A stretch of 30,365 bases of DNA. Source: Anaerolineae bacterium (GTDB lineage: Bacteria; Chloroflexota; Anaerolineae; JAAYZQ01). The stretch covers positions 1 through 30,365 of the forward strand of contig JAFGOG010000630.1 of NCBI GenBank assembly GCA_016926595.1, given 5' to 3'. Below are positions 3,058 to 30,248 of this stretch, piece after piece. The position numbers and the translations under genes are program-made. The first letter of the stretch is position 1. Every line of letters begins with the position of its first letter. The notes under the pieces are model-generated. The model was not told where the DNA came from, did not search any database, and saw only the letters and a program-made list of their open reading frames with translations.

Positions 3058-3354
3058 TTACCAGCGGCGCCGGCGGTTTCCACCACCGCGATCGTCCGAA
3101 CGCGGTTCGCGGGGTTTGGCTTCGTTCACCTTGAGGGCCCGGCCGTCTAATTCCTGTCCGTTCAAAGCAGCGATCGCCGCATTGGCCGCCTGATCCGTCG
3201 CCATTTCCACAAAGGCAAAGCCGCGGGGGCGTCCCGTATCACGATCGGTGATCACGTTGACCGACGTCACCTCGCCGTGCGCCCCAAAGACCTCTCGCAG
3301 CCTGTCCTCGCTCGTATCAAAGCTCATGTTGCCTACGTAAATATTCTTACCCAT
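3058..3354 (-). CDS. RRM-domain RNA-binding protein
   Basis: A 98-residue single RNA-recognition-motif protein. RNP2 is IYVGNM at residues 5-10 and RNP1 is RGFAFVEM at about 44-51, both with the aromatic residues that stack on RNA. The C-terminal tail after residue 80 is basic and Gly/Arg-rich (DDRGGGNRRRRW), like the glycine-rich tails of bacterial and cyanobacterial Rbp proteins, which are often cold-induced. It is 20 bases downstream of a cold-shock protein gene and has AAGGAG in that gap, so the two are probably co-transcribed. Expected role: RNA chaperone or mRNA stability in the cytoplasm, perhaps at low temperature. That function is family knowledge, not shown by the sequence. Confidence 0.93.
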   Translation of the reverse strand: MGKNIYVGNMSFDTSEDRLREVFGAHGEVTSVNVITDRDTGRPRGFAFVEMATDQAANAAIAALNGQELDGRALKVNEAKPREPRSDDRGGGNRRRRW

Positions 3355-7691: not shown

Positions 7692-7707
7692 TTGCAATGG
7701 ATTGCAA
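7692..7707. promoter_or_regulatory. Candidate Nur-type operator, TTGCAA-N4-TTGCAA
   Basis: A perfect 7-bp inverted repeat TTGCAAT/ATTGCAA with two central bases lies immediately after the -10 box and covers the start of transcription, an ideal position for repression. As recalled, the box of the nickel regulator Nur of Streptomyces is tTGCaa-N5-ttGCAA, very similar except for spacing. A Fur-family gene is the last gene of this cluster. Binding is inferred. Confidence 0.6.
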
Positions 7708-7740
7708 CAACAATTTCACCACAACAAGCGGGAGGACATG

Positions 7741-8391
7741 ATGCACATTCCAGATGGGTTTTTGGACACCGCGACTTCTGCCGTGGCCTGGGTGGCTGCG
7801 GCAGGGGGCGTGGCTGTGGCGACGCGCCAGGTCAACAAGACGCTGAGCGAGCGCCAGGTGCCGCTGATGGGCGTTTCGGCGGCGTTCATCTTTGCCGCGC
7901 AGATGATGAACTTTACCGTCGCCGGCGGCACATCGGGACACCTGCTGGGCGGCGCGCTGGCGGCGATCCTGCTCGGGCCATGGGCAGGTACGTTAGTCAT
8001 CTCCTGCGTGCTGGCCGTACAGGCCCTGCTGTTTCAAGATGGCGGGCTGGTCGCCCTGGGTGCCAATATCCTGAACATGGCCGTGCTCGGGGTGTGGTCG
8101 GGCTGGTTCGTTTATGTGGGCCTCAAGCGGCTGCTCGGCGAAAAGAGCTGGGCGGTGGTCGCGCGCGGGTTTGCCGCGGGCTGGGTATCGGTCGTGCTGG
8201 CCTCGCTGCTGGCCGCGGTTGAACTGGCCGTGTCCGGCGCCTCACCGTGGGGAGTGGTGCTCCCGGCGATGGGCGGCGTACACGCTCTGATCGGCATTGG
8301 CGAAGGGTTGATCACGGTGGCCGTGCTGGCCTTTTTGCACGCCACCCGTCCCGACCTGTTGGCGCTGCATTCGGCTGCGTCGGAAGCGTAA
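7741..8391 (+). CDS. cbiM: CbiM/NikM, S component of a nickel/cobalt ECF transporter
   Basis: A 216-residue membrane protein beginning MHIPDGFLD, the hallmark N-terminus of CbiM/NikM in which the amino group, His2 and a later His bind the metal. Two ATGs are adjacent (7738 and 7741); 7741 is chosen because it places His at position 2, which metal binding requires. A GGGAGG site (7730-7735) precedes both. Conserved segments FAAQMMNFTVAGGTSGHLLG and ALLFQDGGLVALGANILNM are typical. Six to seven hydrophobic helices follow. It works with the PDGLE protein, CbiQ and CbiO downstream. CooT next door argues for nickel over cobalt. Confidence 0.96.
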   Translation: MHIPDGFLDTATSAVAWVAAAGGVAVATRQVNKTLSERQVPLMGVSAAFIFAAQMMNFTVAGGTSGHLLGGALAAILLGPWAGTLVISCVLAVQALLFQDGGLVALGANILNMAVLGVWSGWFVYVGLKRLLGEKSWAVVARGFAAGWVSVVLASLLAAVELAVSGASPWGVVLPAMGGVHALIGIGEGLITVAVLAFLHATRPDLLALHSAASEA

Positions 8392-8403
8392 GGAGAAAGC
8401 GAG

Positions 8404-8700
8404 ATGATAAAAAAGTACTGGTGGCTGATCGGGCTGCTGATCGCCCTCGCTGTGACCCTGTTTTCCCCGTTGGCCTCGCCCTATCTCGACGGGTTGGAAC
8501 GCGTCGCCGAAGACAAGGGATTCATCGACCGGGCCCAGGACGCCCCTTACGAGATCGTTCCCGACTATGTGTTCCCAGGCATCGCCGATGAGCGCGCGGC
8601 GACCATCATGGCCGGGCTGATTGGCACGCTGGTGGTGTTCGGGCTGGGCTATGGCCTGGCCTGGATCTTGCGCCGGCGGGCCAAACAGGCCTTACCATGA
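8404..8700 (+). CDS. PDGLE-domain protein (CbiN/NikN-like subunit)
   Basis: A 98-residue protein with an N-terminal helix (residues 6-26), a periplasmic segment containing ASPYLDGLERVAEDKGF, and a C-terminal helix (about 67-90) ending in basic residues. The segment is the PDGLE domain of NikN/CbiN-type small subunits, with Leu replacing the usual Pro of P-D-G-L-E. These subunits help CbiM load metal. AAGGAG precedes the start; the end overlaps cbiQ by four bases (ATGA). Confidence 0.9.
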   Translation: MIKKYWWLIGLLIALAVTLFSPLASPYLDGLERVAEDKGFIDRAQDAPYEIVPDYVFPGIADERAATIMAGLIGTLVVFGLGYGLAWILRRRAKQALP

Positions 8701-9503
8701 TCCTGCAGCCTGCGTTGGAGTCGTATCACGTCGCCGACAGCCCGATCCACCGGCTCGACGCCCGGCTCAAGCTGCTGGCGACGCTGGCGTTTGTGCTGGC
8801 CGTGACCAGCTTGCCGCCATCGGCGTGGGCAGCGCTGCTGCTGCTGGGGGTCGTCGCCCTCGCGCTGACGGTCAGCTCACGCGTGCCGCTGGTCACGGCA
8901 CTCAAACGCTCGCTGATCGCCCTGCCCTTTGCCGGCATGATCGCCCTGTCGATCCCGTTCACCCGTGGCGGCCTGGTGCTCTGGCGGGTTCAGCTTGGAT
9001 CCTGGACGCTGGCGGTCACTGACCTGGGGTTGGTCACCTGGACATCGATCGTGGTCAAAGCCTGGCTGTCGGTGTGGGTCAGCGGGCTGTTGGTGGCGAC
9101 CACGCCCTTTCCGGCCTTGCTCAAGGCCATGCAAGCCTTGCGGCTTCCCCAGATCCTGGTCACCATCATCGCCTTGATGGTCCGCTATCTGTTCGTCCTC
9201 GTCGACGAAGCCACGCGCCTGCAGACGGCTCGCCAGGCTCGTTCGGCCGGAACGGCGGCGACGGCGCGGGCGGGCGGCACGCTGTTCTGGCGGGTCAAGG
9301 TGCTGGGCGGGATGATCGGTTCGCTGTTCATCCGCAGCTATGAGCGCAGCGAGCGCATCTATCACGCCATGCTGTCGCGCGGTTACGATGGGCAGTGGCC
9401 CGCGTTGAACCCGCTCATATGGCAGCCACAGGACACCTGGGCCGGCATCCTGCTGGGGACATGCCTGACCGCCATTGCTATCCTTGGCCAGGTGATGGGG
9501 TAG
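8697..9503 (+). CDS. cbiQ: CbiQ, T component of the nickel/cobalt ECF transporter
   Basis: A 268-residue transmembrane coupling protein. It begins with the characteristic HVADSPIHRLDARLKLL and has five or so hydrophobic helices, then the cytosolic coupling segment RSYERSERIYHAMLSRGYDG (about residues 203-222), whose A-R-G-like motif contacts the ATPase. Translation is coupled to the PDGLE gene by an ATGA overlap. It connects CbiM with CbiO. Confidence 0.95.
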   Translation: MILQPALESYHVADSPIHRLDARLKLLATLAFVLAVTSLPPSAWAALLLLGVVALALTVSSRVPLVTALKRSLIALPFAGMIALSIPFTRGGLVLWRVQLGSWTLAVTDLGLVTWTSIVVKAWLSVWVSGLLVATTPFPALLKAMQALRLPQILVTIIALMVRYLFVLVDEATRLQTARQARSAGTAATARAGGTLFWRVKVLGGMIGSLFIRSYERSERIYHAMLSRGYDGQWPALNPLIWQPQDTWAGILLGTCLTAIAILGQVMG

Positions 9504-9507
9504 GCCC

Positions 9508-10263
9508 ATGCAGCCATTGATCGAGATCGAGAACCTGTCTTTCGCCTACCCCGATGGGCACGCCGCTTTGCATGGCGTGGATCTGGCCATCTATCCGGGC
9601 GATAAAGTCGCCATCGTCGGGCCCAACGGTGCGGGCAAGTCGACCCTGTTCTTGCACCTGAACGGCATTTTGAGCGCCTCACCAGCCCACGGCGCGGGGA
9701 GCGTGCGCGTGGCTGGCATCGAGATCAACAACCGCACGGCGCGGCAGGTTCGGGCGCTGGTCGGCCTCGTCTTTCAGGATCCCGACGACCAGCTCTTTTC
9801 GCCGACAGTTTTCGAGGACGTGGCCTTTGGCCCGCTGCATATGGGCTTGCCCGCCGCCGATGTGCGCGAGCGGGTCACCTACGCGCTGTCGGAGGTGGCC
9901 ATGCATGGCTACGAGGCTCGCATGCCACACCATCTCAGCCTGGGCGAACGCAAGCGCATCGCGATCGCCACCGTTCTATCGATGAATCCGGACATCCTGG
10001 TTCTCGACGAACCGTCGGCGGGGCTCGATCCCCGCGCACGCCGCAGCCTGATCGGACTGTTGCGTTCGCTGCCGCAAACGATGCTCGTCGCCACCCACGA
10101 CATGCGCCTGGTGTGGGAGCTGTGCCCGCGCACCGTGGTGATCGACGGAGGGCGCATTGCCGCCGACGGCCCAACCGCCGAACTGTTGTGCGACCAAACG
10201 CTGATGGAACAGCATGGGCTGGAGACGCCGTTGGAAGCGCTCAGTGCTGCCGCCGTTTGTTGA
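9508..10263 (+). CDS. cbiO: CbiO, ATPase of the nickel/cobalt ECF transporter
   Basis: A 251-residue ABC ATPase with Walker A GPNGAGKST (about residues 38-46), the Q-loop GLVFQDPDDQLFSPTVFEDVAFGP typical of ECF ATPases, signature LSLGERKR, Walker B ILVLDEPSAGLDP and switch His (ATHD). It starts four bases after cbiQ. The four cbi genes make a complete group I ECF transporter with dedicated ATPase. Confidence 0.96.
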   Translation: MQPLIEIENLSFAYPDGHAALHGVDLAIYPGDKVAIVGPNGAGKSTLFLHLNGILSASPAHGAGSVRVAGIEINNRTARQVRALVGLVFQDPDDQLFSPTVFEDVAFGPLHMGLPAADVRERVTYALSEVAMHGYEARMPHHLSLGERKRIAIATVLSMNPDILVLDEPSAGLDPRARRSLIGLLRSLPQTMLVATHDMRLVWELCPRTVVIDGGRIAADGPTAELLCDQTLMEQHGLETPLEALSAAAVC

Positions 10264-10799: not shown

Positions 10800-11243
10800 A
10801 TGGCCTGCGAAGAGGTTTTCCTGGAGAAACTGCGTGCGCGCGGCCTGCGCCTCACCCCGCAGCGCGAGATGATCCTGTCGGCCATGCACGAGATAAAAGG
10901 GCTGGCTACGGTCGAAGAGGTCTATGCCCGCGTCCAGGCCGTCACCTCGGCGGTGGATGTCTCGACGGTATACCGGACGCTGGATCTGCTGCAGGCATTC
11001 GACATCGTGGCCTGCATCGATTGCGGCGATGGCCAACACCGCTACGAACTGCTGGGCGTACACGGCCCTCACATCCACCTGATCTGCCAATCGTGCGGCA
11101 AGGTGGTGGGCGTCGACCTGCAAGAAGCCCAGCCGCTCGCCGAGCAGTTCAGAGCCAGGTATGGGTTTGCTGCCGACCTGGACCACCTCACGATCTCGGG
11201 GCTGTGCCAGGCGTGTGCCGAGCGTGCGGCAAAAACGCCCTAA
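10800..11243 (+). CDS. Fur-family metalloregulator, probably nickel-responsive (Nur-like)
   Basis: A 147-residue regulator: N-terminal winged helix (LTPQREMIL.AM.....TVEEVYA; STVYRTLDLL at 55-64 is the recognition helix), then the dimer domain with H80, H88, H91, H93 and two structural zinc pairs CQSC (97-100) and CQAC (136-139). Family members sense Fe, Zn, Mn, Ni or peroxide. Position at the end of a nickel uptake locus, and the TTGCAA dyad at the head of it, favour nickel sensing and autoregulation. Assignment to Nur rather than Zur or Fur cannot be settled from residues alone. GGAAGG lies upstream of the ATG. Confidence 0.93.
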   Translation: MACEEVFLEKLRARGLRLTPQREMILSAMHEIKGLATVEEVYARVQAVTSAVDVSTVYRTLDLLQAFDIVACIDCGDGQHRYELLGVHGPHIHLICQSCGKVVGVDLQEAQPLAEQFRARYGFAADLDHLTISGLCQACAERAAKTP

Positions 11244-11262
11244 GTTTTTTCGGCGTTCTTTT
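11234..11262 (+). terminator. Possible terminator after the Fur-family gene
   Basis: AACGCC (11234-11239) can pair with GGCGTT (11252-11257) around a 12-base loop, followed by CTTTT. The stem includes the end of the coding region. Weak but correctly placed. Confidence 0.45.
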
Positions 11263-11272
11263 GGACTTGGAC

Positions 11273-11301
11273 TTGTGCAAATCCTGATTCCATGCTAGAA
11301 T
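11273..11301 (+). promoter_or_regulatory. Promoter of the selenium operon leader
   Basis: TTGTGC (11273-11278), 17-bp spacer, TAGAAT (11296-11301) with an extended -10 TG (11293-11294). Predicted start of transcription near 11308, about 295 bases before yedE. Confidence 0.65.
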
Positions 11302-11307
11302 GGCTGC

Positions 11308-11531
11308 CATTGAACCCTTGATAGATGGCCCAACAGGAGTGAAAAAGTGTTTAGGGTGACTCACCGCCAAATCTGATCGGTGTGCCCGAGCGCCAGTTGG
11401 CGTTCACGACCTGTCCAGCACACACCAGCGGACGGCGAAGCCTTCCTCAGAACGGACGGTGAAGCCGCCCCCTAACCGGGCATGGGATGTTCTCCCTGAC
11501 CGCTGCTGGCGTGTGCCGGCAGCGGTTTTTT
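11308..11531 (+). ncRNA. Structured leader RNA upstream of yedE, candidate riboswitch or sRNA
   Basis: The 224-base segment between promoter and terminator has no gene but much structure. TTAGGG (11351-11356) pairs with CCCTAA (11470-11475), closing a multibranched domain. Within it are GGTG/CACC (11355-11365), GGTGTG (11379-11384) with CACACC (11421-11426) enclosing CGCC-AGTT-GGCG (11391-11402), and two copies of GGACGG(C/T)GAAGCC (11430-11442, 11454-11466) able to form GG(C/T)-GAA-GCC hairpins. A terminator follows. GCACAC (11418-11423) can alternatively pair with GTGTGC (11511-11516) in the terminator, a possible switch. It matches no riboswitch class I know. Fold and function are inferred. 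Confidence 0.55.
11500..11531 (+). terminator. Strong intrinsic terminator in the selenium operon leader
   Basis: CCGCTGCTGGC (11500-11510), loop GTGT, GCCGGCAGCGG (11515-11525) with one G-U pair, then six T (11526-11531). It stands about 70 bases before the yedE start, after the leader RNA, so the operon needs readthrough, or the leader is a stand-alone RNA. Confidence 0.88.
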
Positions 11532-11602
11532 GATCCATGTCGTGGCCTGCGGCAAGTGGCGTCGTGGGACGCGTGGTGATAACAATAGAAAAGGGAGAAT
11601 CC

Positions 11603-12730
11603 ATGTCCGAAAAGTTAACCCGTTTCTTTGCTTCGCGCTGGGGGATCATCCTCGCCGGGGCCGTGATCGGCGTCCTGGCGCCGCTGCTGCAGGTCGCAGG
11701 GAACCCCAAGAACATGGGCATCTGCGTGGCCTGCTTTGAGCGGGACATTGCCGGAGCGTTGGGGCTGCACCGCGCCGCCGTCGTCCAGTACGTCCGGCCC
11801 GAGATCGTCGGCTTTGTGCTGGGCGCGACGATCGCCGCGCTGCTATTCCGCGAGTTCAAAGCCCGCGCCGGCTCTGCCCCGATCGTGCGCTTTGTGCTGG
11901 GCATACTGGCCATGATCGGCGCATTGGCTTTCCTGGGCTGCCCCTGGCGGGCGCTTTTGCGCTTTTCGGCCGGCGATCTGAACGCCATTATCGGCCTGCT
12001 TGGCCTGGCAGCCGGCATCTTTGTCGGCGTGCTGTTCCTCAAGTCCGGTTACAACCTCGGTCGCTCGCACGCCACCTATGCCGCCGTCGGCTGGATCATG
12101 CCTGTGATGATGATCGGCTTGCTCCTGCTGCTCGTCTTCCGGGTCAAGGTAAGCGACACAGGCGCCCTCTTTTTCAGCGAGGCCGGCCCCGGTTCGCAGC
12201 ATGCTTTCTGGCTGATCTCACTGGGAGCCGGGCTGCTGATCGGCTTTTTGGCCCAACGCACCCGCTTCTGCACGATGGGGTCGATCCGCGACGTGATCTT
12301 GATGGGCGACACCCACCTGATCAGTGGCCTGGGGGCGCTGGTCATTTTTGCCATCCTCACCAACCTGCTCCTGGGACAGTTTGGCCCCATCGCTTTCTTT
12401 GGCCAGCCGGTGGCGCACAGCCAGCACCTGTGGAACTTTTTAGGGATGGCACTGGCCGGGCTGGTTTTTGCCCTGGCAGGCGGCTGTCCGGGCCGCCAGC
12501 TTTTCCTGGCCGGTGAGGGAGATAGCGATTCAGGCGTGTTTGTGCTGGGCATGATCGTCGGCGCGGGCCTGGCCCACAACTTTGCCCTGGCTGGCTCGCC
12601 GGATACGGTGATGGAAGGTGTGAAAAAGGTCGGCGGCATCGGTCCGTACGGCATGGCGGCGGTGGTGCTGGGTTTGGTGGTCTGCGTTGTCATTGGCTTG
12701 ACAATGCGTGAAAAGATGGAGGTAAAGTGA
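11603..12730 (+). CDS. yedE: YedE-family putative selenium transporter
   Basis: A 375-residue membrane protein with about ten hydrophobic helices. Cys motifs typical of YeeE/YedE proteins are present: GICVACF near residues 38-44, FLGCPWR, TRFCTMGSIRD and AGGCPGRQL. YedE of this subfamily is found with yedF and selD and is proposed to import selenium compounds. The start at 11603 has AAGGGAG (11591-11597); an upstream in-frame ATG at 11537 lacks a site and lies just past the terminator. One base separates its stop from the next gene. Confidence 0.93.
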   Translation: MSEKLTRFFASRWGIILAGAVIGVLAPLLQVAGNPKNMGICVACFERDIAGALGLHRAAVVQYVRPEIVGFVLGATIAALLFREFKARAGSAPIVRFVLGILAMIGALAFLGCPWRALLRFSAGDLNAIIGLLGLAAGIFVGVLFLKSGYNLGRSHATYAAVGWIMPVMMIGLLLLLVFRVKVSDTGALFFSEAGPGSQHAFWLISLGAGLLIGFLAQRTRFCTMGSIRDVILMGDTHLISGLGALVIFAILTNLLLGQFGPIAFFGQPVAHSQHLWNFLGMALAGLVFALAGGCPGRQLFLAGEGDSDSGVFVLGMIVGAGLAHNFALAGSPDTVMEGVKKVGGIGPYGMAAVVLGLVVCVVIGLTMREKMEVK

Positions 12731-12731
12731 A

Positions 12732-12941
12732 ATGGCTCACACGGTAGATGCGCGGGGACTATCTTGCCCCCAACCGGTTATCCTGGCTCGCAAGGCCATC
12801 CAGGCCGGCGAGTTCCCGATCGAGCTGCTAGTCGACACCGTGACCTCGCGCGAGAACGTCCGGCGCGCGGCAGAGAAACTTGGCTGCACAGTGCGGGTCG
12901 AGCAGATGGGAGACGAATTCAAGCTGACGCTCAAGAAATGA
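12732..12941 (+). CDS. TusA/SirA-like sulfurtransferase-type protein
   Basis: A 69-residue TusA-fold protein with the signature VDARGLSCPQPVIL; Cys12 is the expected persulfide or perselenide carrier. It lies between yedE and yedF, so it likely relays selenium between the transporter, the desulfurase-like enzyme and SelD. Within the family TusA carries sulfur; the selenium role is inferred from context. GGAGG ends yedE and serves as its ribosome-binding site. Confidence 0.92.
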   Translation: MAHTVDARGLSCPQPVILARKAIQAGEFPIELLVDTVTSRENVRRAAEKLGCTVRVEQMGDEFKLTLKK

Positions 12942-12954
12942 ACCACTAAACGAC

Positions 12955-13008
12955 AAACCCATGAACAATGGGCCAATGAACCACATACAGCCCATTGTTC
13001 ATGGGTTT
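12955..13008. repeat. Perfect 19-bp inverted repeat between the TusA-like gene and yedF
   Basis: Arms 12955-12973 and 12990-13008 are exact reverse complements with a 16-base loop. There is no T-run, and the stem ends about 13 bases before the yedF start, so it could limit yedF translation or mark an mRNA processing or stabilising site. It may also be a mobile palindrome. Confidence 0.75.
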
Positions 13009-13021
13009 CAAGGATGAATGA

Positions 13022-13624
13022 ATGTCAAAGATAGTCGATGCACGTGGGCTTCCATGCCCGCAGCCGGTCATCCTGACCCGCAACGCAATGCGCGATAATG
13101 ATGCTGTCATAACCATCGTGGACAACGAGACGGCCCAGCAGAATGTAACCCGTATGGCCGAAAAGGCCGGGGCCACGGTGCAGGTTGAACAGAAAGAGGA
13201 TGGTATCTACCTCCACATCCATGGTCACACCGGTGGCGAGCAAACGCCGCAGGAAGAAGAGGTCGTCTGCGAAGCAGATCCCGCCGGCGGGCCGCTGGTG
13301 TTGGTCATCCCGAGCGAGTTCATGGGGCGCGGCGACGACGAGTTGGGCCAACTTCTCATCCGCGGCTTTTTTCACACCTTGGGTGAGGTAATGCCGCTGC
13401 CTGACACGATCATCTTTTTCAACAGTGGGGTCAGGCTGGTTGTGCAAGGCTCTCCTGTTCTGGAGGACGTAAAGGCCCTGAGCGAGCAGGGTGTAGAGAT
13501 CCTGGCCTGCGGCACCTGCCTGGGGCATTATGGGTTGAAGGAGCAGGTCGCCATCGGTGAGGTGTCCAACATGTACACTATCGCTGAGACCATGCTGCGC
13601 GCCGGTAAGGTGGTAAGCCTGTAA
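13022..13624 (+). CDS. yedF: YedF, sulfurtransferase-like selenium metabolism protein
   Basis: A 200-residue protein with an N-terminal TusA-like domain (VDARGLPCPQPVIL; Cys12) and a C-terminal DsrE-like domain from about residue 95 (LVIPSEFMGRGDDELGQLLIRGFF...FFNSGVRL...CGTCLGHYGL). This two-domain form is the YedF of selenium-using bacteria. Two Cys in ACGTCLGHYG (about residues 161-164) are the DsrE-like redox pair. It is expected to handle selenium between desulfurase and SelD. AAGGATG is upstream of the ATG, just after the 19-bp inverted repeat. Confidence 0.94.
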   Translation: MSKIVDARGLPCPQPVILTRNAMRDNDAVITIVDNETAQQNVTRMAEKAGATVQVEQKEDGIYLHIHGHTGGEQTPQEEEVVCEADPAGGPLVLVIPSEFMGRGDDELGQLLIRGFFHTLGEVMPLPDTIIFFNSGVRLVVQGSPVLEDVKALSEQGVEILACGTCLGHYGLKEQVAIGEVSNMYTIAETMLRAGKVVSL

Positions 13625-13634
13625 GGAGATCGAG

Positions 13635-14807
13635 ATGATCTATTTTGACAACGCCGCCACCTCCTGGCCCAAGCCGCCGGGTGTGGTCGAAGCGATGGTA
13701 CACTTTATGCAAGAGGTGGGCGCCAATCCCGGCCGGGCTGCCCATCGCCGGGCCATCGACGCCGGGCGGATCGTCTATGGGGCCCGCGAGACGGTGTGCG
13801 AGCTGTTCCACGCCCCCGATCCGCTGCGCCTGGTGTGGTGCAAGAACGTGACCGAGGCGCTCAACCTGGCACTGCGCGGCCTGCTGCGGCCCGGCGACCA
13901 CGTGGTCACCAGCTCAATGGAGCACAACTCGACCATGCGCCCCCTACGTGTGCTGGAGCAGGATGGCGTCACAGTGACAGTCGTAAGGTGCACCCCACAG
14001 GGTGTGCTGCACCCAGCCGACTTGGAAGCAGCGATCCAGCCGAACACCAAACTGGTAGCACTCAACCACGCCTCCAATGTGGTAGGCACGCTGCTGCCGG
14101 TCGCCGAGGTGGGCGCGATCTGTCGCCAACGCGGCATCCTGCTGCTGGTAGACGCCGCCCAGACAGGCGGCGCTTGCCCGATCGACTTTCAGGCCGACCA
14201 GATCGACCTGCTGGGTTTCACCGGCCACAAATCGCTGGGCGGCCCGATGGGCACCGGCGGCCTGATCATCGGCGAGCGGGTAGACGAGGCGCAGCTTGAG
14301 CCACTGATTCGCGGTGGCACGGGCAGCCGCTCGGAGCACGAGCTGCAGCCCGATTTTTTGCCCGACATGTGCGAAAGCGGCACACCAAATGCAGTCGGCC
14401 TGGCAGGGCTGCAGGCGGGCGTGCGCTGGGTACTGGCCCAAGGCGTCGAGCGTATTCGCGCCCACGAGGTAACGCTCGCGCAGCGGCTGATCGAGGGTCT
14501 GCGAGACATCCCCGGCGTAGTTGTCTATGGTACGCTGGACGCAGAGCTGCAAACGGCGACAGTGTCGTTCAACGTCGCCGGCATGCTCTCCTCAGAGCTC
14601 GGGTTGCGATTGGATGACGAGTACGGTGTCATGTGCCGGGTGGGCCTGCACTGCTCGCCGGCCGCGCACAAGACAATCGGCACCTTTCCGGCCGGCACGG
14701 TGCGCTTTGGTCTGAGCGCGTTTAACACTATGGACGAGGTCAAGGCTGCGCTGGCGGCTGTAGCGGCGTTGGCCGGGGAAGCCATTGACCCGGATAAGGC
14801 AGGATAA
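13635..14807 (+). CDS. Cysteine desulfurase/selenocysteine lyase-like PLP enzyme
   Basis: A 390-residue class V aminotransferase-fold enzyme. MIYFDNAATSWPKP opens it; the PLP lysine is K199 in FTGHKSLGG and the catalytic cysteine is C340 in LHCSPAAHKTIGTFP. RRAIDAGRIVYGARE near the N-terminus is typical of the cysteine desulfurase family subgroup that accompanies selD and yedF. It releases S or Se from cysteine or selenocysteine; selenium mobilisation for SelD is the likely role from context. AAGGAG precedes the ATG, 10 bases after yedF. Confidence 0.93.
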   Translation: MIYFDNAATSWPKPPGVVEAMVHFMQEVGANPGRAAHRRAIDAGRIVYGARETVCELFHAPDPLRLVWCKNVTEALNLALRGLLRPGDHVVTSSMEHNSTMRPLRVLEQDGVTVTVVRCTPQGVLHPADLEAAIQPNTKLVALNHASNVVGTLLPVAEVGAICRQRGILLLVDAAQTGGACPIDFQADQIDLLGFTGHKSLGGPMGTGGLIIGERVDEAQLEPLIRGGTGSRSEHELQPDFLPDMCESGTPNAVGLAGLQAGVRWVLAQGVERIRAHEVTLAQRLIEGLRDIPGVVVYGTLDAELQTATVSFNVAGMLSSELGLRLDDEYGVMCRVGLHCSPAAHKTIGTFPAGTVRFGLSAFNTMDEVKAALAAVAALAGEAIDPDKAG

Positions 14808-14847: not shown

Positions 14848-15894
14848 ATGACACGCCAAGAGATTCGTTTGACGGCGCTAGCCAGCGCGGCGGGTTGAGC
14901 GGCCAAAAAAGGGCCCGAGGCCCTGGCGCAGGTGCTGCGCCCCTTAGCAGGCATGTTCACCGCCGCGCAGTTTCCAAACCTGCTCGTCGGCCTGGAGGTG
15001 AGCGACGATGCCGCCGTCTACAAGATCAATGACCAGGTCGCGGTCATCCAGACGGTCGATTTCTTTACCCCCGTGGTGGATGACCCGTATGACTATGGCG
15101 CCATCGCCGCAACCAACGCCATGAGCGACGTCTATGCCATGGGCGGCGAGGTGACGCTGGCGCTCAACATCTGCGGGTTTCCGCCCGAGCTGCCGGATGA
15201 GGTCGTGGGCGCGATTTTGCGTGGTGGCGCGGACAAGATCGCCGAGGCAGGTGGGGTACTGGCTGGCGGCCACACCATCGACGCCAAAGAGCCAACCTAC
15301 GGCCTGGCGGTGATGGGCCTGGTCCATCCAGACCGCGTTTGGACCAAGGGCGGCGCCCGCCCGGGGGACGCACTGGTTTTGTCCAAGCCGTTGGGCGTCG
15401 GCATGGTCACCACAGCGCTCAAGGGCGAGGTCGCCGATCCGGTCCACGTCGCCGAGGCCGTGGACAGCATGAAACGCCTCAACCGTGAGGCCGCGTCTCT
15501 CATCGGCCAGGTTGAGGCGCACGCCTGTACCGACATCACCGGCTTTGCCTTGCTGGGTCACAGCTACGAGATGGCCCACAAGGGCGGCGTGCAGGTACGG
15601 TTCTTTTTTGACGCCCTCCCGTTTGTCGCCGGGGCGGTAGGGTATGCAGAGGACAATCTCTTCCCCGGTGGCTCTTGCAAAAATCAACAGGCCTACGAGC
15701 GGTACGTGGCGTTTGCACCGACTCTCTCCGCGGAAATGCAGCTCTTGCTGTTTACCCCCGAGACCTCGGGTGGCTTGCTGGCTGCCATCTCGCCGGCCAA
15801 GCTCGATGTGCTCCTGGCCCTCTTTGCCCAGGCCGGCCATCCCTGTTGGGTGATCGGTGAGGTGGTAGAGGGCGAAGGGATCCAGGTCGTCTGA
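14848..15894 (+). CDS. selD: Selenide, water dikinase (selenophosphate synthetase), selenocysteine-containing
   Basis: SelD makes selenophosphate from selenide and ATP. Read through the in-frame TGA at 14896-14898 the protein is 348 residues, usual for SelD. The start ATG 14848 has GGAGG upstream. The reading gives LTALASAAGUAAKKGPEAL, where U is position 17 and K20 follows, aligned with catalytic Cys17/Lys20 of E. coli SelD. Downstream are the family's DFFTPVVDDPYDYGAIAATN, GGHTIDAKEPTYGLAV and TDITGFALLGHSYEMA. A frame that begins after the TGA (14932) lacks the catalytic loop and is rejected. The cell must therefore have selA, selB and selC elsewhere. It ends the selenium operon at a terminator. 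Confidence 0.95.
14899..14930 (+). promoter_or_regulatory. Candidate bacterial SECIS element in selD
   Basis: Directly after the UGA, GGGCC (14911-14915) pairs with GGCCC (14919-14923) around a CGA loop, and GCC (14902-14904) can pair with GGC (14925-14927) below an A-rich internal loop. Position 10-30 bases after the UGA fits SelB-bound SECIS hairpins. Bacterial SECIS has little sequence consensus, so this is tentative. Confidence 0.5.
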
Positions 15895-23454: not shown

Positions 23455-24324
23455 TCAATCTATCACGGTCGCATCCCCAGGCAGCGAACGCACGTGCCGC
23501 AAATGAGCGCTCACCCGCCGGTCATCGCCGTGCGGATAGACAAAGCCGAGATGGCTGGCGACGGCGACGGCCGTCGTCCTAAACAGGTCCCCTAGGGTGA
23601 ACAGCGCTTCCCAGGTCTGATCATAGCTGGCACCGGCGTAGATCTTTTGAAGCATCTCCCACAACTCGGGTTCGAGGAAGCGATCGAGGTACTTGGCGTA
23701 GGCACCTGGATTGCCCTGGAACCCGGTGCGCACACCCACGTACCAGGCCAGCATGTTCATGAGTTGCGGGCGGATGACCTGGTCGAGCATATGGTGGGCA
23801 TAGACGATCTGCCGCCGCCAGAGCCCCTTGGCCACGTAAGGACAGACCCACCAGAATTCGTTGCAGCAGTCGGCAAAGGCTTTGGCGGTGGGCGGGCGCG
23901 GCAAATAGTCGCGCTCGCTGGGCGGCGGGAAGGGCGCGATGAGGCCATCCTTGTCGAGCAGGAGCAGGCTCAGGCTGTCCCTGGGGAGGTCGTCGAGCCG
24001 GGCGACGGGGAAGAGGCCCAGGTCGATGCGGTTGCCGTCGGTGAACTGCATCAGATAGGCGAAACTGCTGTCGTTGCCGGGTGGCGGGTCCTGCATGTCG
24101 TCCGGCATCTGCATGATCATCATCTCGCCAAAGCGTCTGTTCCAATCGGGATCCTCCCGAAAGGAGGCGACCTCGGTGACGATGTAAACGATGTCAAAGT
24201 CCTGAAAGATGTCGCGGGGCGCGTCCGGGTTGGCGCGCGAGCCGTTCATGATCACGGCGCGGATCCGGTCGTCATCTCGGGCGGTGCTGATGATGAGGTC
24301 GAGCATTTCCTGTTCGCTGCGCAT
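23455..24324 (-). CDS. ANT(6)-like aminoglycoside 6-adenylyltransferase family protein
   Basis: A 289-residue protein with the family core: MNGSRANPDAPRDIFQDFDIVYIV (residues 26-49), in which G-S and D-x-D form the nucleotidyltransferase metal site, and FWWVCPYVAKGLWRRQIVYAHHML and a C-terminal helical domain with NMLAWYVGVRTG. ANT(6)/AadE enzymes adenylate streptomycin; chromosomal homologs in environmental bacteria often have untested substrates. No mobile element is near. GAGAAAG lies upstream. Confidence 0.92.
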   Translation of the reverse strand: MRSEQEMLDLIISTARDDDRIRAVIMNGSRANPDAPRDIFQDFDIVYIVTEVASFREDPDWNRRFGEMMIMQMPDDMQDPPPGNDSSFAYLMQFTDGNRIDLGLFPVARLDDLPRDSLSLLLLDKDGLIAPFPPPSERDYLPRPPTAKAFADCCNEFWWVCPYVAKGLWRRQIVYAHHMLDQVIRPQLMNMLAWYVGVRTGFQGNPGAYAKYLDRFLEPELWEMLQKIYAGASYDQTWEALFTLGDLFRTTAVAVASHLGFVYPHGDDRRVSAHLRHVRSLPGDATVID

Positions 24325-24940: not shown

Positions 24941-27058
24941 CTAGGGCGTTTTGCCCGTTTGGGCCAACGGCAGCGGCAGCGGATTCTCGACCAAAAAGTT
25001 GTCGGCCAGTTGGGCCAGGCGGCGGATCTCCTCCGGGCGGGGCATCTGGGCGAGAAGGTCGTCGGGCGGGCGCGGCGACAGTTCCGACCACGCGTCTGCA
25101 GACGTCTGCGGCCAACCTTCCCCCTCCGGCGCGCGGGTCGCCTGGTTTAGGACGGCCTGCATAAAGGCCGGCCAGCGCATGGTCATCCCCAGCCAGCCGA
25201 TCACCTGCCGCTGCCACTCCGGCCGGTCGGTGCGTTCGCCCAGCCGGGTGGACAGGATCTTGACATAGCGATAGGTGTTGAGCAGGCGCTTGATGCGGCG
25301 CGGGTTGCTCTCCAGGTGGCGGAGGGCAAAGCCGGCCAGCGCGGCCCGTTCGACGGCGGTGTCCTTGAGCGCCAGCGGCTTGACCGGGTCGTCGGGCACG
25401 TGCAGCGGGCCACGGCCAAATTCGGGCCCGAGTTCGGGCGCGAGTTCGGGCGCGGCGGCCTGCGGCGTGGACACGGCTGGTTCTCCACCCGGCTCTGCCG
25501 CCTCCTCGACCTGCATCAAGCTGTCCAGGTAGTTCGCTACCTGCTGTGACCCGGCGACGGGCACGCGGATGGGCACCTGGATGATTTTTTCCAGGTACTC
25601 GCGGGCCAGGTCGGGGTTGCGCACCTGTTGGTAGTGCAAGTGGATGGCCTCGGCGACGACGCGGGTGTCCACGGCCATCAAGACGATAAAGATCTCTTCG
25701 GCCAAAAACAGCTTGATCGCCTCCAGGATGTCGACGATCCGTTCCAGCGGGCAGCGGTCCAGTTCGTCGATGAACACCACGATCTTGAGTTTCTTTTTCC
25801 TGGCCTGTCCCAGGGTCTGCCCCTGGGTGGGCGCCTGTTCCTCCTGGTCCAGGGCGAAATAGTCCTGGATCGTCTGGCGCATCTCTTCCTGGATGTCGTG
25901 CATCACGCCGTCCACCTCGGACGTGTCCAGCTTGTCAACCAGGGCGCGGATGATGTCGGTGAGCGGCGTCTGCCGGTACAGGACCAGCGTGGAGCTGCCC
26001 AGGGCGACCAGCCAGGCCAAAACCTTGGCCACGACCTCTTGTTCTTGCGCCCAGGCCCACCACGAGTCAAAGAACATGGAGAGCATAGCCAGAGCCACCG
26101 GGATGAGCCCGAGCAAGGCCGCGCCCAGGAGCCGCCATCCACGGCGGCGGATCCAGTAGAGCGGGCGCTGCCACCAGGCGATCTCCTGGTCCAACCGGCG
26201 CGAGACCTGTTGGACCAGGCCAGCCCACAGCTTGGCCGCATCGGTGTAGGCCCAGGCGTTGTACTCCAGGCAGCTGATCTTGGGCACCGTGCGGTCGCGC
26301 GACCTGGCCCGATCCCAGCGCTGCAGGTGGTTTTTGACCAGGCCCAGCAGCGTGGATTTGCCCGACCCCCACGCGCCGTAGACGCCGATCACCACCGGCG
26401 GGATGGTCTCGGGCTTGATGATCATTTCGGCCAGGGCCTGCGCGTACAGCTCAAAGCCCAGGCGATCGCGGTCGGCGGCGGCGTCGGAAAAGGCCATGCC
26501 GGCGGCAAAGGCGAACATGCCGGCGGTGATGGTCACGTCCTCGGGGGTCCGGGCCAGGATGTCGCGCACCTGGTCCAGCGGCAGGCCCATGTCGACCAGC
26601 CACTGGCAGGCCACACCCTGCTCGTCCGCCAGCAGCCCGCGCAAGAGGTAGCGGGTGCGGACGACGGTGTTTTGTGCGCGGGCCAGGCCGGCGGCGGTAT
26701 CCCAGGCCAGCCCGGCATCGGGGGCATAAACCAGGTCGTTGGGATCCACCCTGGCCAGCTCATCGGGGCCGACCGGATCGGGCAGCGGCCGTGACCAGTT
26801 CTGACGTCCGGCCAACCCGTACCACAGGCGGGCACGGTCGATGCCAAAGGCCTGGAGCAAGGCCTGGGTGGGGTGATCGGCCAACTCGTTGAGGGCAAAG
26901 AGCAGCAGGCCGCTGGTGACCTGCTGCTGGCCTACCTGCTCGCGCAGCGCTTCGGTCAGCTGCAGCGCCCGGCGCGTCGCCTCGGACGGAGAAGGGGGCG
27001 GCGGCGCTTGCGCTTGAGAAAAATCGCCTCCTTTGATCGCACTCGAACGCATCTCCAT
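24941..27058 (-). CDS. Clp_N-like/KAP-family P-loop NTPase
   Basis: A 705-residue protein. Residues 27-80 and 113-170 resemble a double Clp N-terminal repeat (TRRALQLTEALREQ...TSGLLLFALNEL and DTAAGLARAQ...TRYLLRGLLADE). Residues 190-600 are a KAP NTPase: Walker A GAWGSGKST (228-236), two membrane segments (310-330, 343-361) inserted as in KAP proteins, Walker B KIVVFIDELDRC (425-436), and NPRRIKRLLN (585-594). A Pro/Glu-rich linker (520-560) is encoded by 12-bp repeats. AAGGAGGT precedes the ATG. It is the last gene of a STAND-unknown-KAP set. KAP NTPases occur in phage exclusion and signalling; the role here is not known. Confidence 0.9.
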   Translation of the reverse strand: MEMRSSAIKGGDFSQAQAPPPPSPSEATRRALQLTEALREQVGQQQVTSGLLLFALNELADHPTQALLQAFGIDRARLWYGLAGRQNWSRPLPDPVGPDELARVDPNDLVYAPDAGLAWDTAAGLARAQNTVVRTRYLLRGLLADEQGVACQWLVDMGLPLDQVRDILARTPEDVTITAGMFAFAAGMAFSDAAADRDRLGFELYAQALAEMIIKPETIPPVVIGVYGAWGSGKSTLLGLVKNHLQRWDRARSRDRTVPKISCLEYNAWAYTDAAKLWAGLVQQVSRRLDQEIAWWQRPLYWIRRRGWRLLGAALLGLIPVALAMLSMFFDSWWAWAQEQEVVAKVLAWLVALGSSTLVLYRQTPLTDIIRALVDKLDTSEVDGVMHDIQEEMRQTIQDYFALDQEEQAPTQGQTLGQARKKKLKIVVFIDELDRCPLERIVDILEAIKLFLAEEIFIVLMAVDTRVVAEAIHLHYQQVRNPDLAREYLEKIIQVPIRVPVAGSQQVANYLDSLMQVEEAAEPGGEPAVSTPQAAAPELAPELGPEFGRGPLHVPDDPVKPLALKDTAVERAALAGFALRHLESNPRRIKRLLNTYRYVKILSTRLGERTDRPEWQRQVIGWLGMTMRWPAFMQAVLNQATRAPEGEGWPQTSADAWSELSPRPPDDLLAQMPRPEEIRRLAQLADNFLVENPLPLPLAQTGKTP
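25419..25454. repeat. Three 12-bp tandem repeats inside the KAP gene
   Basis: Units at 25419-25430, 25431-25442 and 25443-25454, close to AGTTCGGGCGCG, code for a P-E-L/F-A/G linker. The period is a multiple of three, so unit number can vary without breaking the frame. Confidence 0.7.
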
Positions 27059-27086
27059 TTGGACCTCCTTACCTGCGTCGTGCCCA

Positions 27087-27130
27087 GGTGGTTGGGTGGT
27101 TAGGTGGTTGTTGGGCCGTTGGGTCGTTGG
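27087..27130. repeat. Low-complexity GGTTGGGT-type repeats
   Basis: Degenerate 7-8 base units (GGTGGTTG, GGTGGTTA, GGTGGTTG, TTGGGCCG, TTGGGTCG) fill the gap between the 205-residue gene and the KAP gene. Confidence 0.5.
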
Positions 27131-27154
27131 CGGCGACAGGCCACACTGGTGACC

Positions 27155-27772
27155 TCACAGCAATCTCCACTTGTCGTATTTCAGACTGAACTGGTTGTTT
27201 GCCTGTTGGCCGGTCACGCGCACGCGCCAATGACCGTCATGTGCTGCCGACGATCTGAGGGTGATGGGTGCGCCGGGATCGGCCGATCCGTATGCGTGCA
27301 CGAGTTCCTGGCCATGGGGCTCGATCTCGTACAGGTTCACACCGACCTGGCCCAGGCTCGCCTCGCATTCGACTTCAGTGCTGCCCGAGTTGTCGTAATC
27401 GACCCGGGTCGTCTTGCCCTGCTCCAGGAGTGGGTCGATGACGTAGGTGATGCGATAGGGCGGCGGCGTCTTGATGCTCAAGCGCGAAATGCCAATGTTC
27501 ACATCGTCCCAATACACCTGGGGAGCGGGTTGATCGGCCAGGGTCAACGCAAGATCCGCGGCCTCATCTCGCGCCTCGACCGGGGTCACCGTGATCTCGA
27601 TCTTGAACCGGCCTTCCTCATACTGCTGCAGCAGGTTGGCGATGGCTTCCTTGGTGGTCGCGGTGAGGTAGACCCAAAACGTGTTGTGTTGATCGTCCTC
27701 CAAAACCCCTACCGCCTGCCAAAGCCGCTTGACCGGAGAAAACTGAATGTGCTGTGTTTTTTGTGCTCTCAT
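27155..27772 (-). CDS. Unrecognised 205-residue protein between STAND and KAP genes
   Basis: The ATG at 27772 follows AAGGAC and lies 19 bases after the STAND gene stop; a longer frame runs back into that gene and is unlikely. No signal peptide or membrane helix. The N-terminal half alternates helices and strands (VGVLEDDQHNTFWVYLTATT, then EAIANLLQQYEEGRFKIEITV); the second half is rich in beta-type stretches (YRITYVIDP, VGVNLYEIEP, WRVRVTG). I do not recognise a family. Tight linkage with the two NTPases suggests an adaptor or effector of the same system; this is inference. Confidence 0.8.
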   Translation of the reverse strand: MRAQKTQHIQFSPVKRLWQAVGVLEDDQHNTFWVYLTATTKEAIANLLQQYEEGRFKIEITVTPVEARDEAADLALTLADQPAPQVYWDDVNIGISRLSIKTPPPYRITYVIDPLLEQGKTTRVDYDNSGSTEVECEASLGQVGVNLYEIEPHGQELVHAYGSADPGAPITLRSSAAHDGHWRVRVTGQQANNQFSLKYDKWRLL

Positions 27773-27791
27773 GGTCTTGTCCTTTCTCGAA

Positions 27792-30083
27792 TCACTTGCC
27801 GGGCTGTGGATAGGTGACGCAACGAAAGCCGGTGTCTTTGCCAAAACGAAAAGGGTCCGCCTCGAGCCGATACGCAATCTGATCGGGCTCCAATTTCACA
27901 CCACCCCCCTTCAAGACCAACCCCACTGGGGGATCGTGCTGCAGATCTGTCCATTCGCCCTGGTCTGCTGCGTAAGCCGAACGGGTCCACTCCCAAATCC
28001 CCTGTAATACAATGTCCTCGCCAGAACGAACAGCCCGCTCCCACTCCTTTTCCCTTGGCAAGTCCCGGCCAACCCAGGAGCAAAACTGAGCAGCCTGGTA
28101 AGCCGTCACGTTAGCGACGGCCACGTGGTCATACGCTTCTCCCTCATAGGTCGACGGCGCGGCGTTGGGCGGCGAACAGGCGCCGGCCTCCACACATTTG
28201 AGATACCGTTGGTTGGTTACCGGCAGCCGCTCGATGGCAAAGGCGGCGACGTCATAGATCCCTTCCGGCAGGAACTCGTCGGTCGCCAACACGCCCAATC
28301 CCAGGCGCACCGAGTCAGCGGCAAAGGGAACGGTCTCGCCCAAAGCGATGGCCTGACGGCGCAGCCAGGCCTGTAGAACCGGCTTTTGGGCCAACAGGAC
28401 GACGACCACGAGCGCCAACACCAGCAGTGCGGCGACGGCCCTGTTCCAGTTTCGCTGCACGCGGGCGCGGGCCGATGCCTCTCGCTCCCGCAGAGCCAGG
28501 CTTTCCCGGACGAACGCGCGCTCGCCGTCGTTCAGGTCGTCCCGCCGTCCCTCGAGCCAGCCCTCGGCCTCGGCCAGCAGCGCGCCGCGCAGCAGCGCAC
28601 CTTGGTCCTCTCCGCTTTGCCGCCACCCCTGGATGGCCATCGCCAGCCGCTCGCGCCACAGCCCAAAGGCGCGGTCCTCGTCCAGCCAGCGACGAAACTG
28701 CCCCCAACTGCGGATCAACGCCTCGTGGGCCACCTCGACCACGGGGGCCTCGCCCTGCCCGGTCACCAGCAGCCGGGCTTCCTGGCCGGCGAGCGCCTGC
28801 ACCACGCTTTCCACCGCCGCGCGCGGCGTATGCCGGGTCACCAACTCGTCCAGCGTGGCCCGCCGGCGCGTGACCCCAGCATCCTGGCTATAGTGGGCCA
28901 GCCGGGTCAAGATGCGCCGCATCGCCTGCCCTTGACCGCGCCGCTCCAGTTCGGCATAGATGGCCTCGGCGCGTTGGGCAATCGCCCCCTCGACCTGGCC
29001 GATCGTCTCATACCCCGCGTGGGTCAGCACGCCGGCGGGCGTCTGGCGCGCCCACAGCTCTTTGAGCGCATATTCGAGCAGCGGCAGATGGCCCGGCTCG
29101 CCGACCACGTCGTCCAGGATGCGCTCCACCAGCCCTGGCTCGAACGTCCGCCCGGTGCGCCGGGCCGGCTGTTCGATCGCCGCACGCAGTTCATCTTCGT
29201 CCATGGGCAGCACGTTAACCAGCCCTGCATCCACCGCCTGCCCCAGGCTGCGGTCGGCCAGTACACGGCCATAAAAGTCAGCCCGCAAAGTGAGGATGGC
29301 CGCCATGCCTTTTTCCTGCGCACATGCCAGCAGCGCAGCCACAAACGCCTGGCGTGACGACTCGTCCTGGCACTCGGTGTACAACTCTTCGAATGGGTCG
29401 GCGACCAGGACGAGGTTCGATCGCCCGGGGCGTCTGGCCCGCAGCCGGCCGGCAAGATCCACCAGCAGTGTCGTTCCCTCGCCCAGGCTGTCGGCCAGTT
29501 TTCGCGTGTCCTCGATTTGGGCCATCTCACTGGCCTGTGGTTCCAACAGCGCGATCAACAGGCCGGCCAGGGAGCGCAGCGGGTCGGCGCCGGGGACAAA
29601 AAAGTGAAACTCCCAATCGGGCAGGGCGGCGACCAGCCCGGCGCGCACCAGCGACGACTTGCCGCAGCCCGAGGGGCCGACGACGGCGACAAAGGGGCAG
29701 GCGCGCACTTTATCGGCCAGGCGGGCCGCCATGTCCTCGCGGCCAAAGTAGAAGACAATGTCCTCTTCGGTAAAGGGCTCCAGGCCGCGATAAGGACAGG
29801 GCGCCTCGGGCAGCGGAGGCAGGCGTGCCCACAGGTCGGGGACCTGGCGTTGCAGGGCAACGATGTGGTGGGCGATCTGGGCGACGTCGTCAGAAGGCGC
29901 ATCGCCGGCCAGGGCCAGGTATTCACCCAGCTGGCCCTGGATGAGAACGCCCTGTTCCCCGATCATCCGCCGGGCGCGGGCTTTTTCCTCCGGCCGGTCC
30001 GAGGTGCGCAAAATGTCCTCGTATCCACGGATGATCTGGTAGGACTCGGCGATGCTTTTTTCTAGATCGTCTTTGCGAGCCAT
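27792..30083 (-). CDS. nSTAND1 NTPase with membrane helix and C-terminal FGE/sulfatase-modifying-factor-like domain
   Basis: A 763-residue protein. Residues 1-90 are a helical N-terminal module, perhaps an effector-associated domain. PYRGLEPFTEEDIVFYFGRE (97-116) opens a novel-STAND-1 NTPase with Walker A GPSGCGKSS (136-144), Walker B LVLVADPFEELY (224-235), LRADFYGR and EVAHEALIRSWGQFRRWL (450-467). A helix (548-566) is followed by an FGE-like/C-type-lectin-fold domain (606-757): LPVTNQRYLKCV, LPREKEWERAVR, IWEWTRSAY, KGGGV and GFRCV. The catalytic Cys of true FGE is missing (AYRL for CR), so the domain probably binds a ligand. The ATG at 30083 has GGGAG upstream; longer frames lack a site. 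First gene of the three-gene set. Confidence 0.92.
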   Translation of the reverse strand: MARKDDLEKSIAESYQIIRGYEDILRTSDRPEEKARARRMIGEQGVLIQGQLGEYLALAGDAPSDDVAQIAHHIVALQRQVPDLWARLPPLPEAPCPYRGLEPFTEEDIVFYFGREDMAARLADKVRACPFVAVVGPSGCGKSSLVRAGLVAALPDWEFHFFVPGADPLRSLAGLLIALLEPQASEMAQIEDTRKLADSLGEGTTLLVDLAGRLRARRPGRSNLVLVADPFEELYTECQDESSRQAFVAALLACAQEKGMAAILTLRADFYGRVLADRSLGQAVDAGLVNVLPMDEDELRAAIEQPARRTGRTFEPGLVERILDDVVGEPGHLPLLEYALKELWARQTPAGVLTHAGYETIGQVEGAIAQRAEAIYAELERRGQGQAMRRILTRLAHYSQDAGVTRRRATLDELVTRHTPRAAVESVVQALAGQEARLLVTGQGEAPVVEVAHEALIRSWGQFRRWLDEDRAFGLWRERLAMAIQGWRQSGEDQGALLRGALLAEAEGWLEGRRDDLNDGERAFVRESLALREREASARARVQRNWNRAVAALLVLALVVVVLLAQKPVLQAWLRRQAIALGETVPFAADSVRLGLGVLATDEFLPEGIYDVAAFAIERLPVTNQRYLKCVEAGACSPPNAAPSTYEGEAYDHVAVANVTAYQAAQFCSWVGRDLPREKEWERAVRSGEDIVLQGIWEWTRSAYAADQGEWTDLQHDPPVGLVLKGGGVKLEPDQIAYRLEADPFRFGKDTGFRCVTYPQPGK

Positions 30084-30219
30084 GGACTCACTCCCATGAC
30101 ACTTGAACTCCACGCGGCGCGACAGGGCTGCGGACGAGATAGGTTCGCTGCTCGAGCGCACGTTGGCGAAGCGGGTTCGGGCTCTCCGGCCGGTAGGACG
30201 AGGCAATGGTGATACACCT

Positions 30220-30248
30220 ATTATACCATTCTCTGGGGCTCTCGGCAA
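30220..30248 (-). promoter_or_regulatory. Promoter of the STAND-KAP operon
   Basis: On the minus strand TTGCCG (30248-30243), 17-bp spacer, exact TATAAT (30225-30220) with extended -10 TGG. Transcription starts near 30213, giving a 130-base leader. The rest of the window, to 30365, has no gene I can support. Confidence 0.8.

Follow-up and report, generated by a model that had tools for sequence, protein, structure and literature searches.

In leader-peptide attenuators of the trp/his type, the position of the ribosome on a leader ORF selects an antiterminator or a terminator. Translational attenuators of the ermC type, which sequester a Shine–Dalgarno (SD) sequence, respond to antibiotic stalling. 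For the 5′ leader of Escherichia coli selAB, Thanbichler and Bock reportedly described in 2002 the binding of SelB to a SECIS-like element near the translation start. The leader analysed here lies upstream of yedE, which encodes a putative selenium transporter, in a window of 30 365 nt (the whole stretch of DNA analysed). It resembles the trp/his attenuators in its short ORF, its sensor codon, its competing antiterminator and terminator and the deciding role proposed for the ribosome position; it differs from them in its proposed sensor, a reassigned stop codon that would be decoded as selenocysteine (Sec) with the help of SelB and a SECIS, and in having a second stop as one of its components. 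With the bacterial SECIS (bSECIS) of fdhA it shares a UGA, an 18-nt spacing, a small apical hairpin and a G within the first two loop positions, but its hairpin sits in a short ORF (43 codons with read-through, both stops counted) and not in the gene of a redox enzyme. As in selAB, a SECIS-type RNA in a 5′ leader would regulate selenium genes, whereas the selAB element is not known to have a UGA read-through ORF or an antiterminator. In a sister form of the leader, one strand can pair with the SD sequence of yedE as in ermC-type attenuators, but the proposed sensor is UGA/Sec decoding instead of antibiotic stalling. Among the matches listed in searches of an open-access library, no Sec-codon leader regulator of this design was found.

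We consider it highly probable that the leader is a ribosome-mediated transcription attenuator with selenocysteine as its sensor codon, by which low selenium would turn the uptake genes on. If true, selenium status would be read through the genetic code itself, with the 21st amino acid serving as a regulatory signal and not as a catalyst, and many Chloroflexota would offer a concrete, testable case. Annotation may in that case be overlooking short genes in the form of UGA-containing leader ORFs, and the leader would be a ready reporter of Sec decoding.

Organization of the leader in the window

A sequence-only reading of this stretch had proposed a candidate new riboswitch or sRNA with a terminator, responding to selenium or redox state by transcription attenuation. 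The motifs that it listed, among them CGCC-AGTT-GGCG, the two GGACGG(C/T)GAAGCC copies and the terminator, lie where it had placed them (Table 1). Its promoter held in part: a ‒10 element (11296–11301) and a weak ‒35 element (11273–11278, 3/6) are present by eye, and a consensus scan reported no promoter. GCACAC can indeed pair with the terminator instead, and over a longer stretch than had been claimed: 13 of 14 positions match between region 2 and the 5′ half of the terminator. The riboswitch or sRNA interpretation found no support. What is conserved is a short ORF containing a UGA, together with a SECIS-type hairpin and, in the same frame, a second stop; the likely sensor is therefore the ribosome acting with SelB and Sec-tRNA and not an aptamer. 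The short ORF, the UGA and the placement of the SECIS-like hairpin had gone unmentioned in that reading. The GGACGG(C/T)GAAGCC repeats are an in-frame duplication of 24 nt (8 codons) inside the read-through frame, and the CCC-TAA side of the TTAGGG/CCCTAA closure proposed in that reading contains the second stop of this frame.

None of 200 dinucleotide shuffles folded as well as the window leader (z ‒2.73), and the terminator had a free energy of ‒26.3 kcal/mol (z ‒6.5). An Rfam scan of the leader at the gathering score gave no match, and a scan of 11200–11640 with E values up to 5 gave only two chance-level sRNA matches. No group II intron family matched in the latter scan. Neither a described RNA family nor an intron remnant, both of which the sequence-only reading had set against its own proposal, is thus indicated, since no Rfam match exceeded chance level.

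Table 1. Features of the yedE leader and of the downstream genes in the window
Feature	Position	Strand	Details
Promoter-like site	11273..11301	+	TTGTGC - 17 nt - TAGAAT, read directly
SD of leader ORF	11335..11339	+	AGGAG, 7 nt ahead of GTG
Leader ORF	11347..11376	+	GTG start, 9 codons VFRVTHRQI, then UGA
Read-through frame	11347..11475	+	32 codons after UGA, second stop TAA 11473–11475
Region 1	11361..11366 (11361–11368 covered by the ribosome in the model)	+	UCACCG, shortly before UGA; pairs with 11457–11462 (fold)
UGA, proposed Sec/stop sensor codon	11374–11376	+	End of leader ORF
SECIS-like hairpin	11388..11405	+	7 bp, loop AGUU 11395–11398, loop start 18 nt past UGA
CGCC-AGTT-GGCG	11391–11402	+	Motif confirmed in window
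Antiterminator 5′ strand (region 2)	11418..11431	+	Pairs with 11503–11516, terminator 5′ half
GGACGG(C/T)GAAGCC, two copies	11430–11442 and 11454–11466	+	24 nt apart
Region 2′	11457..11462	+	CGGUGA, partner of region 1
Intrinsic terminator	11498..11531	+	13-bp stem 11498–11510/11515–11527, loop GUGU, U run 11526–11531
yedE, putative selenium transporter, proposed controlled gene	11603..12730	+	TIGR04112, 473.8 bits, cut-off 200
TusA-like / YedF N-terminal-like small protein	12732..12941	+	TIGR03527 positions 1–62, below cut-off
yedF-like gene	13022..13624	+	TusA and DsrE domains
Cysteine desulfurase family gene, EF2568 type	13635..14807	+	TIGR01977, 438.7 bits, cut-off 377
selD, selenophosphate synthase	14932..15894	+	TIGR00476, 346.4 bits, cut-off 125

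The product of the cysteine desulfurase family gene also resembles the Sec lyase SclA (384.9 bits with the SclA model, below its cut-off of 525).

UGA specificity of the leader among related loci

The YedE search matched 71 loci, for which the upstream stretches of 22 and then of 24 others were read, and a further sample comprised 52 loci from 50 genomes of the phylum and the class. ORFs ending in -HR(R/Q)(T/I)-UGA and resembling that of the window were present upstream of yedE in many relatives. We scanned for an SD sequence, a short ORF, a given triplet, a hairpin loop 16–22 nt on and the next in-frame stop 15–60 codons on, in a set of 84 yedE-upstream loci, made up of the window itself, 31 loci from the initial 71 and all 52 of the further sample. 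The SD-ORF-UGA-hairpin arrangement was detected in 43 of the 84 loci, the same rule giving 0 for UAA, 0 for UAG and 0 or 1 for seven other triplets; since the rule was set after viewing the sequences, these counts measure UGA specificity and not unbiased discovery. Among the 43 matches, that of L132 sits at the terminator and not at the true leader of this locus, and that of L133 is doubtful; leaders outside the strict scan (such as L007, L010, L013 and L099) were added by eye or by a looser scan. For the 69 of these 71 initial loci that have 200 nt or more upstream, the rule yielded UGA 14, UAA 1 and UAG 0, and on both strands of all 71 loci it gave 25, 9 and 6 matches, respectively, true leaders included.

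A covariance model of the leader (R1) does not demand UGA, yet all 20 of its training sequences carry it. Of 14 R1 matches examined, 12 had UGA, one was a chance match (L195) and one (L191) had UCA at the UGA position (3182–3184, minus strand), with the other leader parts intact, ahead of a cysteine-desulfurase gene. The genome of L191 has SelB and tRNA-Sec, and the UCA reflects either natural variation or an error in the sequence. Six leaders (L013, L120, L099, L102, L111 and L115) carry UGA-NNN-UGA, two in-frame UGAs one codon apart. A yedE search of viral contigs found none.

Comparison of the hairpin with bSECIS elements

The bSECIS limits given in a 2026 review (PMC13188914) are an apical loop of 3–9 nt, an upper stem of 4–16 bp, a G among the first two loop nucleotides, 16–37 nt from UGA to the loop and a free energy of ‒7.5 kcal/mol or lower. 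The window hairpin lies within all four limits that can be computed: its loop (4 nt) and stem (7 bp) are of permitted size, G occupies position 2 of the loop, the UGA-to-loop distance is 18 nt, and 11384–11405 has a free energy of ‒10.8 kcal/mol. The frame is open on both sides of the UGA (9 codons before and 32 after), as conserved in relatives.

As a yardstick, we analysed 36 of 49 fetched FdhA loci from related genomes and found the active-site motif in 25, with UGA as the active-site codon in 23 and UGC in two. Each of the 23 UGA sites has GGUCU after a spacing of 18 nt, and in the two UGC genes the letters of this stretch are almost unchanged. The same 18-nt spacing occurs in E. coli fdhF. 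As this stretch also codes for conserved residues (VAGL), the fdhA spacing serves as a local SECIS yardstick and not as independent proof. The leaders mostly have 18 nt past the UGA, followed by a loop of GGUU, GGUC, AGUU, GGAC or similar.

Antiterminator, terminator and the region 1 helix

In an alignment of 20 leaders (A4), paired cells made up 99 % of the SECIS stem, 96 % of the terminator and 92 % of the antiterminator, and the pairs changed on both sides numbered 3 of 7, 10 of 11 and 9 of 11, respectively. The covariation score was reached by none of 500 shuffles, and pairing fell to 29–56 % when the partners were slid by 1–3 columns; both controls are favoured by the derivation of the structures from a single member (L048) and by the relatedness of the sequences. 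Hairpin, antiterminator and terminator thus covary in homologous leaders, the check that the sequence-only reading had suggested, and its idea of selenium-linked transcription attenuation through two exclusive structures is strongly supported by this covariation.

All but one of 36 loci had a recognizable terminator. The match of the leader strand to its own terminator beat 20 000 of 20 000 permutations over 35 loci and over 29 dereplicated loci (under 75 % alike); the own terminator was the single best partner of 35 in only four leaders, and for nine of the 35 leaders at least one-tenth of simple shuffles equalled the antiterminator. The antiterminator is weak in L007, the leader of Ornatilinea apprima P3M-1. 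With the ribosome on the UGA and half of the terminator transcribed, at least six antiterminator pairs are expected in 33 of 35 truncated transcripts. In a repeat on 34 loci, 32 had at least six expected pairs versus 18 % of shuffled strings, with a mean of 13.4 versus 2.7 pairs. Judged from its sequence, the leader is a translatable ORF with an SD combined with a predicted antiterminator and terminator that exclude each other, the two hallmarks of an attenuator.

For the helix between regions 1 and 2′, the own match beat 20 000 of 20 000 permutations over 29 loci, with pairs holding in only 82 % of cells. This helix is missing in the seven leaders with a second stop by +66 (1.5 expected pairs) and averages 11.2 expected pairs in the 28 with a later stop, six of which (L001, L003, L007, L009, L011 and L137) have under five pairs despite the far stop. 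The window leader is of the far-stop design (second stop at +99, 15.7 expected pairs), and the fold of its closest relative, L001, has no such helix. Once half of the terminator is transcribed, the equilibrium balance tips from the antiterminator towards the region 1 helix in just three of the 35 leaders.

Read-through frame and second stop

The next in-frame stop lies 20–34 codons past the UGA in all 29 dereplicated loci, compared with 0–84 and 0–73 codons in the other two frames; this range was named after viewing the data, and most of the 29 loci had been preselected by the 15–60-codon rule. Shuffled segments have a stop within 20–34 codons 18 % of the time on average, and no probability is claimed for the placement in 29 of 29, because the loci are related. 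In the sister form, the second stop is 18–40 codons on, except in one leader that runs off the end. Among 67 leaders (37 of the terminator form, 18 of the sister form and 12 detected with R1), UGA serves as the second stop in 38, UAG in 19 and UAA in 9, and one leader runs off the end; UGA at the first position was a selection criterion for 55 of the 67.

Sister form, other genes and other lineages

Other members of the class carry a sister form, with an -HRRT-UGA ORF and the hairpin mostly 20–21 nt on (17–26 overall). The terminator rule found a terminator in 3 of 21 sister-form leaders (scores of 27.6–31.7), compared with scores of 29.7–49.4 in 34 leaders of the terminator form. In the 15 of 18 sister-form loci for which a start was found, the match of the downstream strand to the ribosome-binding site of its own yedE beat 20 000 of 20 000 permutations, and all 13 positions were paired in L092. 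By its pairing potential, the sister form may act by masking the ribosome-binding site of yedE in place of terminator control.

In 25 genomes, R1 detected one full-length leader at the already known place in 24 and missed that of G012 (L014). In the class sample, R1 matched 39 of 396 genomes; 19 of the 39 are in the training set, and 26 have yedE. In the other 13 genomes, which include the chance match, leaders precede a cysteine desulfurase (TIGR01977, with the SclA model below its cut-off) followed by selD in L186, L187, L190 and L191; the first 77 residues of yedE followed by selD in L184; selD directly in L185; and a protein of either the YedF C-terminal or the DsrE type, with scores under the YedF cut-off for those scanned, in L189, L192 and L193. 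The leader of L194 precedes genes for a PCC protein and an ECF transporter, and that of L183 precedes a TIM-barrel protein with a transporter, for which we know of no selenium link. That of L188 is at a contig edge, and the match in G002 (L196) is the missing upstream part of its yedE. The 31-bit match in G687 (L195) was taken as chance, because this genome is without such a leader, SelB or tRNA-Sec. Across these loci, we think it very likely that the leaders form a regulator class, seen so far in Chloroflexota-related genomes, in which a UGA/Sec leader codon would act on a terminator or on the ribosome-binding site of yedE and which would govern yedE, cysteine-desulfurase (Sec-lyase-like), selD and yedF-like genes.

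Three Dehalococcoidia yedE loci (L025, L031 and L064) have a similar ORF-UGA-hairpin arrangement with a GGU loop 32 nt from the first UGA and a frame kept to UAG, L064 having two in-frame UGAs; this is perhaps an independent form. Just upstream of yedE in L029 (855–951) and L033 (4830–4923, minus strand) lie tRNA-Cys(GCA)-like genes of 94–97 nt, reminiscent of recoded selC variants. Two genomes, G547 (L136 and L141) and G619 (L126 and L142), each carry two yedE genes, one behind a leader and the other without a recognized leader.

Selenocysteine machinery in the carrier genomes

SelB and tRNA-Sec were surveyed in related genomes, with a threshold of 50 bits for tRNA-Sec, chosen because the family cut-off of 47 also matches 5 of 14 control genomes. 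Of 24 genomes, 21 had SelB above the cut-off and 20 had tRNA-Sec above 50 bits. SelB and/or tRNA-Sec was present in all 17 leader carriers among them, and the one genome with neither (that of L024) was also without the leader. In 50 further yedE genomes, SelB was found in 46, tRNA-Sec in 42 and one or both in 47, the remaining three being G199 and G265, without the leader, and G525, with it. Of 13 genomes with an R1 match and no yedE at E 1e-60, 11 had SelB and/or tRNA-Sec; the other two were G440, with the leader at a contig edge, and G687, with the chance match. The two carriers without SelB and tRNA-Sec (G525 and G440) are perhaps incomplete assemblies. Three yedE genomes with SelB and tRNA-Sec (G321, G391 and G454) have no recognized leader.

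Proposed mechanism and alternative explanations

Comparison of the leaders demonstrates, at the level of sequence, a conserved ORF, a UGA-specific hairpin geometry, a kept frame and a covarying antiterminator and terminator predicted to be exclusive. According to the proposed mechanism, RNA polymerase would make a leader with a nine-codon ORF ending in UGA and, 18 nt on, the SECIS-type hairpin. When selenium is short, Sec-tRNA/SelB would be scarce, and the ribosome would halt or terminate at the UGA with region 1 covered; region 2 would then pair with the 5′ half of the terminator and block it, and yedE and the following genes would be transcribed (ON). When selenium is plentiful, SelB would insert Sec, and the ribosome would reach the second stop and displace region 2; the freed region 1 would pair with region 2′, the terminator would form and uptake would be OFF. 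Given the usual ribosome footprint, a ribosome at a second stop beyond +66 would miss region 2, and the OFF state of far-stop leaders therefore needs displacement in passing or the 1:2′ helix. Two OFF designs may thus exist, one in which a near-stop ribosome overlaps region 2 and one in which far-stop leaders use the region 1 helix. Since this helix prevails at equilibrium in so few leaders (3 of 35), the model depends on timing during transcription, and we therefore infer the direction of the response, as we do Sec insertion and the response to selenium as such.

It is unlikely that the same element works in the opposite direction, with Sec read-through turning yedE on, for example, by matching uptake to a working Sec system. 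The second stop is often at +78/+81 and region 2 ends near +57, which would allow region 2 to re-pair behind the ribosome. However, near-stop leaders (+63/+66) place the ribosome over region 2 and are without the 1:2′ helix, far-stop leaders have this helix on average, and both designs are as expected if read-through means OFF. Nutrient uptake genes, moreover, normally rise on shortage, which counts against a selenium-inducible yedE.

The SECIS geometry of the hairpin would also suit a repressor element that SelB/Sec-tRNA grips, altering the folding without read-through, in the manner reported for the selAB leader of E. coli, but under pure binding the open frame, the placed second stop and the UGA specificity would be without reason, and we regard this explanation as very improbable. 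An ordinary leader-peptide attenuator sensing His/Arg or slow termination, with UGA as a plain stop, could draw on the HRRT-like codons before the UGA in many leaders; it appears more improbable still, given that UAA and UAG never replace UGA in the 84-locus scan, that a SECIS-type hairpin follows the UGA, that the frame is kept past this hairpin and that most of the downstream genes are selenium genes. Least probable of all is that a selenium compound is sensed by a metabolite riboswitch or by a free sRNA: selenium genes preceded by a structured 5′ region with a terminator would be in keeping with this, but there is no Rfam match above chance level, and the conserved parts are explained by the ORF, the SECIS and the attenuator pairs.

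Other features of the window

ARAGORN detected no tRNA in the window. Between the two TusA-type genes, a 19-bp inverted repeat (aaacccatgaacaatgggc / gcccattgttcatgggttt, 12955–13008) was seen by eye. Upstream of a FUR-family gene and yedE, 7702–10263 encodes CbiM, CbiQ and ABC proteins, components of an ECF transporter of the cobalt/nickel type. On the minus strand, 23455–24324 encodes an aminoglycoside 6-adenylyltransferase-like protein, below the family cut-off, and 24941–30248 encodes a KAP-NTPase protein and an nSTAND1/FGE-sulfatase protein, which are possibly defence-related.
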